Below, piece after piece: positions 16,236 through 22,502 of a stretch of DNA of 34,103 bases. Made by a program: the position numbers and the translations under genes. Source of the DNA: Lentisphaeria bacterium (GTDB lineage: Bacteria; Verrucomicrobiota; Lentisphaeria; Victivallales; Victivallaceae); NCBI GenBank assembly GCA_017454215.1, contig JAFTDL010000050.1:1-34103 (forward strand), given 5' to 3'. The notes beneath the pieces were generated by a model. It was given only the letters and a program-made list of their open reading frames with translations, ran no database searches and was not told where the DNA came from. How positions within the stretch are numbered: position 1 is the stretch's first letter; the number at the start of each line of letters is the position of its first letter.

Positions 16236-16761
16236 ATGCAAAATCCTGTTTTTTGGCGATAAAAGTCAATTTCACGCGGCAGATCCCCGGTCCGGCGGGA
16301 AAACCGTCCGCGGAAAACGTCATGACGGGGCCCGCGGCTTCGACGGACGCGCCGTCGGCGCAAACGTCGAAAAGGGGACAGGCCCCGGCGGACTCCAGAG
16401 CGACGCCCAGTTTCTCCAGCCGTCCCCACGCGGGCGGAACGATGAATTCGAAACAGCCGACGAGGGGACCCGCCCCCCCGAAGGACCACCTCTGGGTCAG
16501 TTCCATCTCTTCGGTGCGGCAGTTTTTTGCCAGCGCCACGGCGTGGGTCTCGGCGGAACCGTCCACGACGCCGAGACGGTCGGGCACGACCCGCAGCCGT
16601 CCGAGGGCCGGAGCTTCCGCAAACAGCCGGGGACCGGAAAGAAGCAATTCCCCCGCGCCGGGAATACGCCACGAGCGCAGTCCCTCGGCCACAATGGCGG
16701 CGGTTTGACCGTTTTCCGCAAGTTCGATACACTCGGCTCTGACGGAGACGTCCACGATCAC
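16216..16761 (-). CDS. Protein of unknown function, translationally coupled to the LpxL-like gene
   Basis: A 181-aa acidic, probably beta-rich cytoplasmic protein with no signal peptide or membrane helix. I do not recognise a family. The GTG start at 16761 overlaps the acyltransferase stop as GTGA, strong evidence that the frame is real and expressed with it. The competing open frame on the same strand is arginine-rich and lacks such coupling. The protein has a balanced composition, with aromatic-containing segments such as TQRWSFGGAG and FEFIVPPAWGRL. A role linked to lipid A or acyl transfer is suggested only by context. Confidence 0.7.
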   Translation of the reverse strand: MIVDVSVRAECIELAENGQTAAIVAEGLRSWRIPGAGELLLSGPRLFAEAPALGRLRVVPDRLGVVDGSAETHAVALAKNCRTEEMELTQRWSFGGAGPLVGCFEFIVPPAWGRLEKLGVALESAGACPLFDVCADGASVEAAGPVMTFSADGFPAGPGICRVKLTFIAKKQDFAFEGSPA

Positions 16762-17792
16762 TCACTCCCCTCTTCGGCGGAAACAGACTGTGCCCGGCCG
16801 CGCTCCTTGCGGAAGAACGAAGGTCTGGGCTCGGCGGCGTAATCGGGATAGCGGCTCCGGACGTCGGCCGGGCAGTCGGGCGGAATGTACTGGAAGCGCT
16901 TGTAGAACCACAGATACTGCTCCGGGTGCATGCGGATGAACTTTTCGGAGATCTTCATGAGTTCCTGCAGCACCTCCCGGTCGTCGGCGTATTCCGCAAA
17001 GGGTTTCGGCAGGTAGGCGGAATGGGCGGTGTTCCGGCCGTCGGCCAGCCGCAGACTGGTGCCGTAGACGATGACCGCGGGCAGTTTGTGCATGTCGCAG
17101 TAGCGTTTGAGGGCGGCGGGAGCGGCGCTGCTGGGTACGGGGAGTCCGAAAAAGTCCACGAAGACGCCGCCGTCGCGGACGCGGGTGTTCTGGTCGATGA
17201 GGGTGCCCACTCCCCGGCCCTGACGCAGAGCTTTCAGCGAGGCGCGCATGGCTCCCCGCGAAAAGATGATCTCCAGTCCCGCGGTGCGTTCGCGGCGGCC
17301 GGAGTTCAGCAGTCTGTTCAGGTAGGGGTTGCGCATGGGTTTGGCGATGGCCACCATGTCCACTCCGGCATAGAAGGGGGCCATGACGCCCGAAGCCTCC
17401 CAGCTCCCCAGATGGGGATTGACGAAAATGATCCGTTCCCCGGCGGCCACGTGGCCTTTGAGCCGCTCCGTGATGTCGGCGGGCAGATAGTAGCATTTTC
17501 TTATCCGCGCGGGATCGCCGCCGATCCAGAAGAACTCCAGCAGATTCCAGATCATGTGCAGAAAACTTGCGCGCATGATGCGGACCCTCTCCTTTTCGTC
17601 CATTTCGGGAAAGGCCGCCTTGAGGTTCTCCAGCACGAGGTGCCGGGCCGAGGGGATGCAGCGGATGAAGAACGCCGCCGGGCGCGCCAATCCCTTAAGG
17701 GAACAGCGCGGCAGAATGCGGATGACGCCGCAGAGACAGACGACGGCCAGATATTCCATCCGGTAACGCACATCCAGCAGAAAATGCTTCAC
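16758..17792 (-). CDS. LpxL/HtrB-like lysophospholipid acyltransferase (lipid A late acyltransferase family)
   Basis: A 344-aa inner-membrane-associated acyltransferase. The catalytic HxxxxE motif is in NPHLGSWE (H127, E132), as in LpxL, whose usual form is HFGNWE. Other family features are the N-terminal hydrophobic segment (about 13-30), LVLENLKAAFPE (52-63), and a downstream VGTLIDQNTRVRDGGVFVDFFG region typical of LpxL-type enzymes. The GTG start at 17792 has GAGGAG 6 nt upstream. The enzyme would add a secondary acyl chain to lipid A. The C-terminal extension after about residue 300 is charged and not recognised. It is the first gene of its unit. Confidence 0.88.
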   Translation of the reverse strand: MKHFLLDVRYRMEYLAVVCLCGVIRILPRCSLKGLARPAAFFIRCIPSARHLVLENLKAAFPEMDEKERVRIMRASFLHMIWNLLEFFWIGGDPARIRKCYYLPADITERLKGHVAAGERIIFVNPHLGSWEASGVMAPFYAGVDMVAIAKPMRNPYLNRLLNSGRRERTAGLEIIFSRGAMRASLKALRQGRGVGTLIDQNTRVRDGGVFVDFFGLPVPSSAAPAALKRYCDMHKLPAVIVYGTSLRLADGRNTAHSAYLPKPFAEYADDREVLQELMKISEKFIRMHPEQYLWFYKRFQYIPPDCPADVRSRYPDYAAEPRPSFFRKERGRAQSVSAEEGSE

Positions 17793-18051: not shown

Positions 18052-19329
18052 TCAGGCGAAGTGTTCGTCTTCGCAGAGACCGAGGGAAGCGCGGCGGCGC
18101 CGGACGAGGCGCTCGTAGGCGTCGCCGATCTTCCTGAGTTCCGCGGGGATCTGAATTTTCTGGGGGCAGGCTTTGAGGCATTTGCCGCAGCCCACGCAGG
18201 CGGAGGCGCGGGAATCCTCGTCGATGGCGCCGTAGTTGTTGACGAAGAGAAAGCGGTTGCCGCTGATCTTGTACTGGTTGTAAAGTCCGAAGATCCTGGA
18301 GATCTCCACGCCGGCGGGACAGGGCATGCAGTAGCGGCAATCGGTGCAGGGCACGGCGAGGCTCTTGCGGTAGGCGGCGAGGGCCTTGTCCAGAACTTTG
18401 CGGTCGGCGTCGGAGAGGGGACGGAAACTGCTGAAGGTTTTGAGGTTGTCCTCGAGGTGTTCCATTTTCGACATGCCCGAAAGGATCACCAGCACGTTGG
18501 GCAGCGAGCCGATGTAGCGGAAGGCCCACGACGCGGCGGAAGCGCCGGGATCGGCGGTCTTGAGGATCTTCGCCGCTTCGGGGTTGAGAGAGGCCAGAGC
18601 GCCGCCGCGCAGGGGTTCCATGACGATGACGGGGATGTTGTTTTTTGTCAAAATCTCGTACTGCTCCCGGGAGCGGTAGAGGCTCCAGTCCAGATAGTTG
18701 AGCTGGATCTGGGCGAAGTCCCACTTGCGGGCGGCGACGACCTTCTGCAGAAGTTCCGGCGTGTCGTGGAACGAAAAGCCCAGACGGCGGATCTTGCCTT
18801 CGGCCTTCTTTTTGCTGAGAAATTCATACACCTTGAGCTTCTCCGCCCGTTTCCACGTATTTTCGCTGACGTTGTGGAACATGTAGAAGTCGAAGTAGGA
18901 CGTCTTGCATTTCCTGAGCTGGTCGTTGAAGATCCGTTCGAGGTCTTCGGGGCGTCTGAGCATGCCCAGCGGCATCTTGCTGGTGAGGAAATAGGAGTCC
19001 CGGGGATATTTCGAGAGCAGATCGCCGGCGCATTTTTCGCTGCGGCCGCCGATGTACATGTAGGCGGTGTCGAAGTAGTTGCATCCGGCCTTCATGGCGC
19101 GGTCGAACATGGCGGCGGCGGCGGCGTAATCGATCTCGGGACCGTCGCCCTTCCGGGGCAGACGCATCATTCCGAAGCCGAGAAGGGGAACGGTCAGCTC
19201 CGTATCCCTGTATTTTCTGCGCACGACCTTGCCGGAGGGGGCGTTTTTTTCGGCGGCGGCGGCAAGACGGCTCACGGGAGCCAGCGCGGCGACGGTCATC
19301 ATGCCTCTGAGAAAATCGCGTCTTTTCAT
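18052..19329 (-). CDS. Aldo/keto reductase with twin-arginine signal and C-terminal 2x[4Fe-4S] ferredoxin domain
   Basis: A 425-aa oxidoreductase. The N terminus KRRDFLRG plus a hydrophobic stretch (about 9-25) looks like a Tat signal, so export of the folded, cofactor-loaded protein is inferred. The AKR barrel (about 38-320) keeps the catalytic tetrad: D87 in NYFDTAY, Y90 or Y92, K118 in LTSKM and H152 in MFHNV. The tail has two ferredoxin motifs, CTDCRYCMPCP and CVGCGKCLKACP. This is a known AKR-ferredoxin family of unclear substrate. It starts 25 bp after the membrane polyferredoxin, which could be its electron partner. It is the last gene of a three-gene operon. Confidence 0.88.
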   Translation of the reverse strand: MKRRDFLRGMMTVAALAPVSRLAAAAEKNAPSGKVVRRKYRDTELTVPLLGFGMMRLPRKGDGPEIDYAAAAAMFDRAMKAGCNYFDTAYMYIGGRSEKCAGDLLSKYPRDSYFLTSKMPLGMLRRPEDLERIFNDQLRKCKTSYFDFYMFHNVSENTWKRAEKLKVYEFLSKKKAEGKIRRLGFSFHDTPELLQKVVAARKWDFAQIQLNYLDWSLYRSREQYEILTKNNIPVIVMEPLRGGALASLNPEAAKILKTADPGASAASWAFRYIGSLPNVLVILSGMSKMEHLEDNLKTFSSFRPLSDADRKVLDKALAAYRKSLAVPCTDCRYCMPCPAGVEISRIFGLYNQYKISGNRFLFVNNYGAIDEDSRASACVGCGKCLKACPQKIQIPAELRKIGDAYERLVRRRRASLGLCEDEHFA

Positions 19330-19354
19330 GGGGCGGGTCTCCTTCTTCTGTTGT

Positions 19355-20665
19355 TTATTCTATCCGGGACTGTTTTTCGACGGGTGAAACCGTCATGGCT
19401 TTGCGGGGGGCGGGACAGACCTTCCGACAGGCGCCGCATCCGACGCACAAAGCGGTCTTGACCGGCCGCGGCGTGCCGTTTTTGCGCAGGGTTATCGCGC
19501 CCGCCGGACAGGCGGAAGCGCACAGGCCGCATTTCGCTCCCTCCTGAAAGGCGAGGCAGTTGCGCGGATCGAACTTCGCCTCGGCGATCCTGATCCTGCG
19601 TTTTTCGGCCAATGCGAGGAAGGGGAGCGCACCCGTGGGGCAAACCTGAGCGCAGCGGGCGCAGTCCCAGCGGCAGGGGGCCTTGTTCAGATCGAGCTCC
19701 ACGGGGCCCGCGCCGCCGGGAGCCGGACGGATGATCTTCTGCGGACAGTTGACTGCGCACAGCATGCACGCGGTGCATTTCCGCGCGAAACGCTCCGCAC
19801 TGCCTGCTCCGGGAGGCAGGACGCGCAGTCTCCGCCCGACCCGCAAAAGTCCCGTGCGGGCGGCGAGGACACCCGCCGCGACCCCCGCCAGCAGGACGCT
19901 TCCCGAAACGAGGAATCTTCTCCGCGAAATATCAGGCGGGGCGGTTTTGTAACCGACGGCGAACGAAACGGCGCCGACGGGACAGGCGGCGAGACAGTTC
20001 ATGCACCGCACGCAGCGGCCGTTGTCGATGACGCCGCTTTTTGCGTCGATGCATCCTGCGGGACAGACTTTTTCACACTTGCCGCACTTGAGGCAGTTTC
20101 CGCCGAGGAAGAGGCGGACGGCTCCGGCTTTGGAAAAGAGGCCCAGCACCGTACCCACGGGACACAGAGTCGTGCAGAAAATGCGTTTTTTCCAGACGGC
20201 GAGAGCGGAGATCACGATCAGGACGGCGAGGCCGCCCAGAGTGAAAGAGCCGGTGATGCGTCCGAAATTGGAATAGGGGTCGAGGGCGAGAAATCCCGCG
20301 TTGACGCCGCAGAAAAGCATGCCCAGCACACAGCCCGAAACCGCGTTGCGGAGGATGTTGAAATCATTCGTCCGCGCGGCCTTGCGTCGGGAGATGAAGG
20401 AGACGAGATCCTGAAGCAGTCCGAAGGGGCAGAACACGGCGCAGTAGATCCGTCCGAAAAGGAAGGCCGAAAGCAGGATGACGGCGCAGACAACCGCTGC
20501 GCCCCAGGTGAAGGCGCCGAAACAGCGCATCAGGACCGGACCCGCCTGAGCCTTGAAGAGCCGCGAAAGAAACACCGCGCCGCCCGCAAAAGTCAGCACG
20601 GAGCCGGTGAGGAACAAAGTTCCCGCGATGATCCTGAATGCTCTGAAGAGTTTCCCGTTCGTCAT
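19355..20665 (-). CDS. Membrane polyferredoxin: NapH-like half fused to a NapG/MauM-like half
   Basis: A 436-aa iron-sulphur membrane protein. Residues 1-235 look like NapH: about four or five transmembrane helices, two membrane-side CxxxCP motifs (CAVFCP 75-80, CTTLCP 164-169), then two 4Fe-4S motifs (CLKCGKCEKVCP 191-202, CVRCMNCLAACP 218-229). Residues 245-436 look like NapG/MauM: SRRRFL (247-252), a hydrophobic segment (253-269), and further motifs at 297-308, 331-343, 379-386 and 407-418. The twin-arginine and hydrophobic stretch of a free NapG signal has thus become internal, presumably a membrane helix. A role in moving quinol electrons across the membrane, possibly to the Tat-type reductase next door, is inferred. 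Confidence 0.85.
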   Translation of the reverse strand: MTNGKLFRAFRIIAGTLFLTGSVLTFAGGAVFLSRLFKAQAGPVLMRCFGAFTWGAAVVCAVILLSAFLFGRIYCAVFCPFGLLQDLVSFISRRKAARTNDFNILRNAVSGCVLGMLFCGVNAGFLALDPYSNFGRITGSFTLGGLAVLIVISALAVWKKRIFCTTLCPVGTVLGLFSKAGAVRLFLGGNCLKCGKCEKVCPAGCIDAKSGVIDNGRCVRCMNCLAACPVGAVSFAVGYKTAPPDISRRRFLVSGSVLLAGVAAGVLAARTGLLRVGRRLRVLPPGAGSAERFARKCTACMLCAVNCPQKIIRPAPGGAGPVELDLNKAPCRWDCARCAQVCPTGALPFLALAEKRRIRIAEAKFDPRNCLAFQEGAKCGLCASACPAGAITLRKNGTPRPVKTALCVGCGACRKVCPAPRKAMTVSPVEKQSRIE

Positions 20666-20685
20666 GACCGTTTTCCTTTCCGGCG

Positions 20686-22347
20686 TCAGAAGAATCCGTC
20701 GTTGTCGCGGACCTCCGCGGTCCCGACGTGTTTGAAGATGATGCTTTTCGAATCCGGCCCGGCGAAGCTGAAGATGCCCGGATCGTGAGGAGACACCGGA
20801 TACCGGTCGTTGATCTCAAGGGTGTTGCCTGAAATTTCGGCCCGCTCCGCCGACAGAACGGCGATCTGCGGCCGCTTCTGCGAAACGAAACGGTTGTTCT
20901 TCACTTCGATGAGGCCGTGGTAATGAAAGTCCGGTTCCAGTTCCTCCATGTCGGGATAGACGGAAACCGTTTCGGCGGTGGAACTGTGGCGCAGATAACA
21001 GCAGTTGTCGAAGAGATTGTCCCTGATGACGGCATGGCGGACGGGCCCGGTCTCGTACCAGCGGCGGCAGCCGCCCGCGATGAAGACCGCCGCGCCCGAG
21101 GTGTGAAAACGGCAGTGCGAAACGTCGACGCTTTCAAGTCCCGAAGCGAGGACGCCCCGGCCGCGGAGAGGCGCGAAATCGCATCCCGAAACTTCGAGAC
21201 GGGCGGTCCCCGCTTCGAGAACTCTTGCCCCGTCGCCGCTGCGCACGTCCGGCGGCAGGGGACCGGAAAAGAAGACCCGGGTCCTTTCGGGCGTGACCGC
21301 CTTCACGCCCGAAACTTCGACCGTGCCGAGGGGACGGCCCGAGGCGGGTCTGACGAATTCGAGCGTGTCTCCCGGCCGGGCGCCCGGCAGTCCCGCCTGC
21401 TGAAAGTGGCCGGTCTCGAGGTAAAGAGAATTCCCGTCCGCTTCGGGGATCGTCACCGGACGGTAGATGCCGTGGACGTTGAGGGCGTCGTCGAGCATCC
21501 CCGAGGCCCGGCAGTTCCGGATGGAAATGCGTCCGCGGCACTCGACGAAGTGCAGCGCGTCGTCGGAGGACGAGACCGCCCGGTCCGCGGCGGGCACGAC
21601 ACGGACCCTTTCGAGGGTCACGTCGCGGCAGAACTGTGCGAGCAGTCCCATGCCCGCGGCGCGGCGGACGGTGACGTTTTCGACCGTGACGCCGGAGCAG
21701 TCCGAAAGGACGATCCCCGGGCAGAGGCGGTCCTCATGCCTGATGGTGAGCGCGGGAGCATCGAAGACAGCGGGCAGAAGGACAAGCCCGTTCTCCTCCC
21801 TTATGCCGCGGTTGGGGATGTTCGTGCAGTCGGCTTCGTGGGGCATCTCGCCCGTCGCGGGATCGAAGGGTCGGATCTGCAGCACGCCCGAACGGTTGTC
21901 GTACTCGTCCCCGATGAAACGCAGCCGTCCTCCGTCGAGGCGGTATCCGCCGTTGAGCTTCACGTGCGAAAAACCGTTTTCCGTACGGACGATCCGGGCG
22001 TCGGAGACGAAGGACTCCTCGAAATCGACGGTTATTCCGCTGATGCGCAGACGGGAACAGTTCTCGGCGAGGAGGGGCGAAATGCGGCCGTGAAAGAAGA
22101 GCAGGGTATCCTCGCCCGCGATCTCGACGTCGTCTTTGTCCGCCAGATGGAGCGCGACCGTCTTCATGCCGCAGTCGTTGTTCGAGAAATACCTGAAGAG
22201 CCGCGCACAGCGCCCCGGGTAGAAGTCATAGCGGCCAGGCAGAAAACGGATGCGCGGACTCTTCCGGGCGGCGGCGAGGGCCAGCGCCCGGACCAGCGCC
22301 GGGACGGCATCTTCGCCCGGAACGGTCTTTTCGACAGTGACAGTCAT
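20686..22347 (-). CDS. Right-handed parallel beta-helix protein, GH110-like (alpha-1,3-galactosidase family)
   Basis: A 553-aa protein made of short beta-helix turns (pattern such as V-T-V-E-N-V-T-V repeated). Segments that match my recollection of GH110 enzymes are RYFSNNDCG (52-60), FFHGRISP (84-91), SSDDALHF (260-267) and LDDALNVHGIY (285-295), the last two rich in candidate catalytic aspartates. GH110 enzymes remove terminal alpha-1,3-galactose from glycans such as the blood group B antigen. No signal peptide is visible, so a cytoplasmic location is expected, which is unusual for a host-glycan enzyme. It opens the operon with the polyferredoxin (20-bp gap) and the aldo/keto reductase. Other beta-helix hydrolases or lyases remain possible. 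Confidence 0.72.
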   Translation of the reverse strand: MTVTVEKTVPGEDAVPALVRALALAAARKSPRIRFLPGRYDFYPGRCARLFRYFSNNDCGMKTVALHLADKDDVEIAGEDTLLFFHGRISPLLAENCSRLRISGITVDFEESFVSDARIVRTENGFSHVKLNGGYRLDGGRLRFIGDEYDNRSGVLQIRPFDPATGEMPHEADCTNIPNRGIREENGLVLLPAVFDAPALTIRHEDRLCPGIVLSDCSGVTVENVTVRRAAGMGLLAQFCRDVTLERVRVVPAADRAVSSSDDALHFVECRGRISIRNCRASGMLDDALNVHGIYRPVTIPEADGNSLYLETGHFQQAGLPGARPGDTLEFVRPASGRPLGTVEVSGVKAVTPERTRVFFSGPLPPDVRSGDGARVLEAGTARLEVSGCDFAPLRGRGVLASGLESVDVSHCRFHTSGAAVFIAGGCRRWYETGPVRHAVIRDNLFDNCCYLRHSSTAETVSVYPDMEELEPDFHYHGLIEVKNNRFVSQKRPQIAVLSAERAEISGNTLEINDRYPVSPHDPGIFSFAGPDSKSIIFKHVGTAEVRDNDGFF

Positions 22348-22382: not shown

Positions 22383-22411
22383 AATGTATATCTTTTCACC
22401 TTTTTTTTCAA
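22383..22411 (-). promoter_or_regulatory. Probable promoter of the GH110-polyferredoxin-reductase operon
   Basis: On the minus strand TTGAAA (22411-22406), a 17-bp spacer and TACATT (22388-22383), about 36 bp before the ATG at 22347. It is divergent from the plus-strand promoter 62 bp away. Confidence 0.65.
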
Positions 22412-22473: not shown

Positions 22474-22502
22474 TTGACAAATGAAAAGGCTGTGTGTATA
22501 TT
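22474..22502 (+). promoter_or_regulatory. Strong sigma-70-type promoter of the PqiC-like lipoprotein gene
   Basis: TTGACA (22474-22479), a 17-bp spacer and TATATT (22497-22502), the closest match to consensus in the window. The leader would be about 45 nt and includes GGAGGAG upstream of the ATG at 22554. Confidence 0.75.

Follow-up and report, generated by a model that had tools for sequence, protein, structure and literature searches.

A polyferredoxin and an exported aldo/keto reductase as a probable periplasmic redox module beside a GH110-type gene in Lentisphaeria

The window, the whole 34,103 nt stretch of Lentisphaeria DNA that was analysed, carries adjoining genes for a GH110-type beta-helix enzyme, a membrane polyferredoxin and an exported aldo/keto reductase (AKR), which raises the question of whether they serve one pathway. 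The preliminary description of the locus proposed that a sugar or sugar-derived compound, released or isomerised by the GH110 enzyme, is reduced by the AKR, with electrons supplied by the membrane protein.

Gene Layout and Promoter

The three open reading frames were found at exactly the positions first described, all on the minus strand, with gaps of 20 bp between the GH110 and polyferredoxin genes and 25 bp between the polyferredoxin and AKR genes. Their assignment as a GH110-like protein, a membrane polyferredoxin and a Tat-type AKR with a ferredoxin tail is supported by Pfam domains (Table 1). Close relatives of all three proteins occur in other genomes, indicating that these are real genes. 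Tight same-strand spacing is also seen in G032 (10 and 22 bp), the nearest relative of the window's own genome (G000), and in G019 (16 and −4 bp); G032 is 97% complete.

Table 1. Features of the three-gene locus (positions in the window).
Feature	Positions	Strand	Basis
GH110-type beta-helix enzyme, 553 aa	20686..22347	-	PF23764 + PF13229; PDB GH110 match
Polytopic polyferredoxin, NapH-NapG fusion, 436 aa	19355..20665	-	NapH, NapF, NapG models
Predicted Tat-exported AKR, two-cluster [4Fe-4S] C-terminal domain, 425 aa	18052..19329	-	Aldo_ket_red + Fer4_9
Promoter-like site, 36 bp 5′ of GH110 start (weak)	22383..22411	-	Sigma-70-like match 9/12

A single promoter had been proposed for all three genes. 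The sigma-70-like site upstream of the GH110 gene does exist, but it is a weak call because three such sites are present in 7 kb compared with 1.1 ± 1.1 expected from shuffled sequences, a number not clearly above chance. The GH110 gene is probably co-transcribed with the redox pair in one small clade. A strong sigma-70-like site (11/12) is found on the plus strand at 22474–22502, serving divergent lipoprotein-like genes from 22494 onwards, and a lipid A acyltransferase-type gene (16758–17792, minus strand), which looks unrelated, lies about 260–290 bp downstream of the AKR gene.

Distribution of the Genes in Related Genomes

A set of 148 related genomes, including G000, was compared. Relatives named in the genome scan belong to Lentisphaeria/Victivallales, many of them from rumen or herbivore gut. 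The three-gene order recurs outside G000 in two genomes of one clade, G032 and G019 (3/148), but the genes were not seen as a trio in the other 145. The preliminary description had named absence of the set elsewhere as a refutation of its pathway, and this is only half borne out. The three genomes group together, with identical branching, in each of three protein trees (support 100/98 or better), which fits joint inheritance of the trio from one event.

The pairing of an exported reductase with a membrane electron carrier, also part of the preliminary description, is conserved far beyond the window. At thresholds of E ≤ 1.6e-122 for the AKR and E ≤ 5.9e-78 for the close polyferredoxin, the AKR is present in 43 of the 148 genomes, the close polyferredoxin in 28 and both in 26. 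The AKR was thus detected in 26/28 genomes with a close polyferredoxin and in 17/120 of the others, and within the genus in 13/13 and 1/21, respectively. Of the genomes that have both genes, 19 carry them side by side or within one gene run, whereas the remaining seven have them separated or on different contigs. A named scan of 70 loci, from which two very weak ones were dropped, found a polyferredoxin adjoining the AKR in 16/26 exported-AKR loci compared with 0/42 cytoplasmic-AKR loci; some of the loci are short, so these adjacency counts are minima. With the pair this widespread but the trio confined to 3/148 genomes, the core appears to be a two-protein module to which the GH110 gene is an accessory.

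Beyond the order, the pair occurs in Puniceicoccaceae (L260) and in Bacteroidales (L256), where tatA and tatC are directly upstream (TatA-TatC-polyferredoxin-AKR). The polyferredoxins of G072 and G094, which represent different families of the order, are near-sisters (support 100/99), suggesting horizontal transfer of the module.

Neighbouring genes vary between loci. At L096 (G102:C34:18000-37900), three tandem AKR genes are found in one run with tatA, larE, larC and a polyferredoxin. L097, L113, L123 and L105 carry near the polyferredoxin, partly or fully, Tat-exported FMN-reductase-like and Tat-exported DUF6282 proteins, a flavodoxin-like protein and a second Tat AKR. Genus AKRs without an adjacent polyferredoxin (L103, L109 and L114) adjoin a DUF4838/carbohydrate-binding protein and a prepilin-like gene.

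The Polyferredoxin and the Exported Reductase

Besides the Nap models listed in Table 1, the polyferredoxin matches many Fer4 domains and Fer4_5 in Pfam. Its layout, read from hydropathy and cysteine conservation, consists of four N-terminal membrane helices, two cytoplasmic clusters, an internal RR, a fifth helix and four periplasmic clusters. The RR before the fifth helix is present in 21/21 relatives, and the [4Fe-4S] cysteine ligands are likewise kept in all 21 at nearly all positions, with Cys370 in 19/21.

The AKR has a strong Aldo_ket_red match (E 5.5e-45) followed by the Fer4_9 match, and carries no flavin domain. Its RR motif, the tetrad D87-Y92-K118-H152 and eight cluster cysteines are conserved in all 33 close relatives, while SGM (284–286) and N295, a pattern of the cofactor sites in the NAD(P)H-using AKR superfamily, are kept in 25/25 rows. 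The AF2 model aligns with AKR structures at Z scores of up to 28.9, and with AKR11C1 the rmsd is 2.7 over 270 aligned residues.

Export is mirrored in the first cluster motif, which is CX2CX2CX2CP in 29/29 RR-bearing AKR ORFs (27 from the script, and two remaining ORFs then shown to have RR) and CX2CX2CX3CP in 40/40 without RR. Three Victivallales AKRs (G080, G127 and G122) have no RR yet carry the shorter, exported-type motif. No TatC match was found in G080 or G127, as expected if export has been lost in these genomes. When all polyferredoxins of this sort are counted (E ≤ 1e-40), TatC is present in 76/79 genomes that have one compared with 33/69 that do not, and within the genus in 17/19 compared with 2/15. 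No TatC was found in G000, which is 84% complete; G032 has one.

Electron Source, Direction and Proposed Mechanism

The NapH and NapG matches raise the alternative that the polyferredoxin is a quinol dehydrogenase feeding the AKR, as NapGH, which the accessible text of PMC5449189 names a quinol dehydrogenase complex, feeds periplasmic nitrate reductase. Gene content makes this improbable: MqnA/D was found in 0/34 genus genomes, which are incomplete, and UbiA-type prenyltransferase in 5/34, none of them among the 14 that bear the AKR, which include G032 (97% complete) and G015 (98%). The absence of quinone genes is read from incomplete genomes, and scavenging of quinones is a further possibility. 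An NQR2/RnfD-family protein is encoded in all 34. Given that no quinone route is seen in the 14 AKR-bearing genus genomes, a ferredoxin of the cytosol is the most likely donor, ahead of quinol.

The main reading, to which we assign a probability of roughly 0.55, is a two-protein periplasmic redox module in which a ferredoxin-fed polyferredoxin wire serves an exported AKR acting on an external carbonyl or alcohol, with GH110 as an accessory. Electrons would enter the polyferredoxin at the two cytoplasmic [4Fe-4S] clusters and cross the membrane, and the four periplasmic clusters would pass them to the [4Fe-4S] tail of the AKR, which would reduce (or, running backwards, oxidise) its substrate outside the cytoplasm. 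Candidates for coupling hydride to one-electron cluster chemistry are the exported FMN-reductase and flavodoxin-like proteins of some sister operons. With ferredoxin as the likeliest donor, a fermenting anaerobe would be able to use the module to dispose of electrons by reducing an external carbonyl.

AKR reactions are reversible and Fe-S wires have no built-in direction, so that the AKR might instead oxidise an external alcohol or sugar and send the electrons inward. This direction is unlikely, as a fermenter without visible quinone synthesis would need a sink more than a further donor. The operon-like set of the preliminary description is real and its redox pair was rightly recognised; the pair is best read as a periplasmic redox module with a variable exported enzyme, probably independent of quinones.

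The GH110-Type Enzyme

The Pfam matches of the GH110-type protein (Beta_helix and GLAA-B barrel II) are above cut-off, its best PDB matches by sequence search are GH110 structures (E 8.9e-60), and a parallel beta-helix with a GLAA-B barrel is assigned to it from these similarities. The catalytic aspartates of PdGH110B (321, 344 and 345, according to the accessible text of PMC7939477) correspond to D263, D286 and D287, which are kept in 24/24 rows spanning the site; one further fragment row stops short of it. The protein is predicted to be an alpha-1,3-galactosidase. Hydropathy and N-terminal alignment reveal no signal peptide, either in this protein or among its homologues. Since the AKR is predicted to be exported, the GH110 enzyme probably acts in a different compartment, likely the cytoplasm, where it would cleave imported alpha-1,3-galactosides.

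This separation bears directly on the sugar pathway proposed earlier. In favour of that pathway, the genes stay closely spaced in G000, G032 and G019, the trio has a single history in the three trees, and L-galactose dehydrogenases are among the structural neighbours of the AKR, but these are tied with many other AKRs. Against it, three of the 19 genomes whose redox genes are adjacent have GH110 next to them, its other homologues sit among unrelated genes, and an exported AKR would not share a compartment with a GH110 enzyme that shows no signal peptide. The three-enzyme pathway is therefore very doubtful. GH110 was rejected as a core part on the same adjacency count, and the best reading is that it is a co-inherited local accessory outside the electron path.

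Sister Modules with Nickel-Pincer Genes and DUF362

Nickel-pincer (NPN) genes, larB and/or larC, were found in or beside an AKR or polyferredoxin operon in nine genomes. In six of these (G116, G102, G125, G045, G072 and, as a larC fragment, G087) larB, larC and/or larE accompany the window-type module, and in three (G051, G057 and G034) lar genes accompany a second polyferredoxin type. LarB, LarC and LarE identities are above curated cut-offs where tested. The six operons invite the explanation that the module serves NPN chemistry, the exported AKR using the cofactor or working with an NPN-dependent partner. Co-occurrence of the AKR with LarC is not above chance, however (26/43 AKR genomes and 69/105 others), and no LarC match was found in the window genome, G032 or G019, making this explanation highly unlikely. 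A nickel-pincer cofactor for the AKR as a general rule was rejected from the same counts.

The gene for the second polyferredoxin type usually lies 3′ of one for a Tat-exported DUF362 protein, and tatA and tatC are often present as well. In this DUF362 protein, H186 and K196 are invariant in 21/21 rows, with the same H-x9-K spacing as H174/K184 of LarA. An AF2 model (pLDDT 88) predicts that it folds like lactate racemase LarA (Z 18.8); the 12 best structure entries all belong to the LarA family (Z 15.9–18.8), and the next, unrelated entry scores 6.0. The accessible text of PMC11770544 places DUF362 and the LarA family together in Pfam clan CL0471. An hhalign comparison of DUF362 with LarA, made with shallow alignments, was not significant (probability 0.2%), and no enzyme was matched when the PDB was searched with the DUF362 sequence.

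LarC is present in 43/48 genomes with this DUF362 compared with 52/100 others, and within the genus in 5/7 compared with 1/27. Three DUF362 genomes have neither LarB nor LarC (G021, G022 and the 99% complete G077), so lar genes do not necessarily go with DUF362. LarC is present in 31 genomes that lack both this DUF362 and LarA (at E ≤ 1e-29); weaker Lar_N matches occur in many of them. G000 carries, at C101:15717-16322 and C315:25402-25986, a LarA-type gene and a diverged LarB that scores under the curated cut-off, with no LarC match. In 20/148 genomes, including G015 (98% complete), LarA is accompanied neither by LarC nor by a LarB that exceeds the cut-off.

Taken further, a general periplasmic platform of quinone-free gut anaerobes can be put forward tentatively, as a possibility that we hold at well below even odds: TatA-TatC, a ferredoxin-fed polyferredoxin wire and an interchangeable Tat-exported hydride enzyme, which would be the Fe-S AKR in the window's branch and an NPN-carrying LarA-fold DUF362 in the other, its cofactor being inserted in the cytosol by the products of lar genes, in some genomes of the same operon. 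If true, this would represent electron export free of quinones and cytochromes, together with an exported redox enzyme that uses the nickel-pincer cofactor; we know of no such enzyme elsewhere. From the sister operons, DUF362, a family whose function is unknown, also emerges as a candidate for an exported enzyme that uses this cofactor. Literature searched by title or abstract, with subscription journals mostly outside the search, contained nothing on an exported AKR paired with a polyferredoxin or on nickel-pincer use by DUF362. Kiritimatiella glycovorans is described in the accessible text of PMC7356697 as having no quinones or cytochromes, yet it reduces AQDS and metals, by means that the text calls unclear. 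In principle, exported enzymes wired through a polyferredoxin would offer a testable answer to how related anaerobes without quinones or cytochromes could carry out external reduction.

Comparison with Known Systems

The GH110-type protein shares its sequence family and the three catalytic aspartates with PdGH110B-type alpha-1,3-galactosidases (PMC7939477, as far as its accessible text describes them), but shows no signal peptide and has redox genes as neighbours. Cytoplasmic Fe-S AKRs of Clostridia (e.g., L219, L226 and L230) have the same barrel, tetrad and two-cluster tail at 40–45% identity. They differ from the window AKR in having no Tat signal, no adjacent polyferredoxin (0/42) and a first cluster motif one residue longer; flavodoxin or FMN-reductase-like neighbours occur in 9/42 of the cytoplasmic loci. 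The sister modules have in common with the LarA superfamily the lar genes, a Tat-exported DUF362 with a predicted LarA fold and the H-x9-K spacing, but these modules are not present in the window genome and NPN use by DUF362 is putative.

The window polyferredoxin has its membrane and periplasmic Fe-S domains in the same order as NapGH and, like it, would deliver electrons to a Tat-exported enzyme. Unlike NapGH of periplasmic nitrate reductase, it is a single fused protein, the enzyme is an AKR rather than a molybdoenzyme, and a quinol source is not visible. The closest parallel in architecture is the polytopic polyferredoxin (PFD), a dual Sec-Tat protein (Tooke et al. 2017, PMC5449189); in the accessible text, it is likewise a NapH-NapG fusion with five helices, a twin arginine before helix 5 and clusters on both sides of the membrane. 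A difference from that system is that the host of the window module shows no quinone route. The same portion of that paper names no partner enzyme, and the words 'aldo' and 'operon' do not occur in it, whereas here the partner is an exported AKR.
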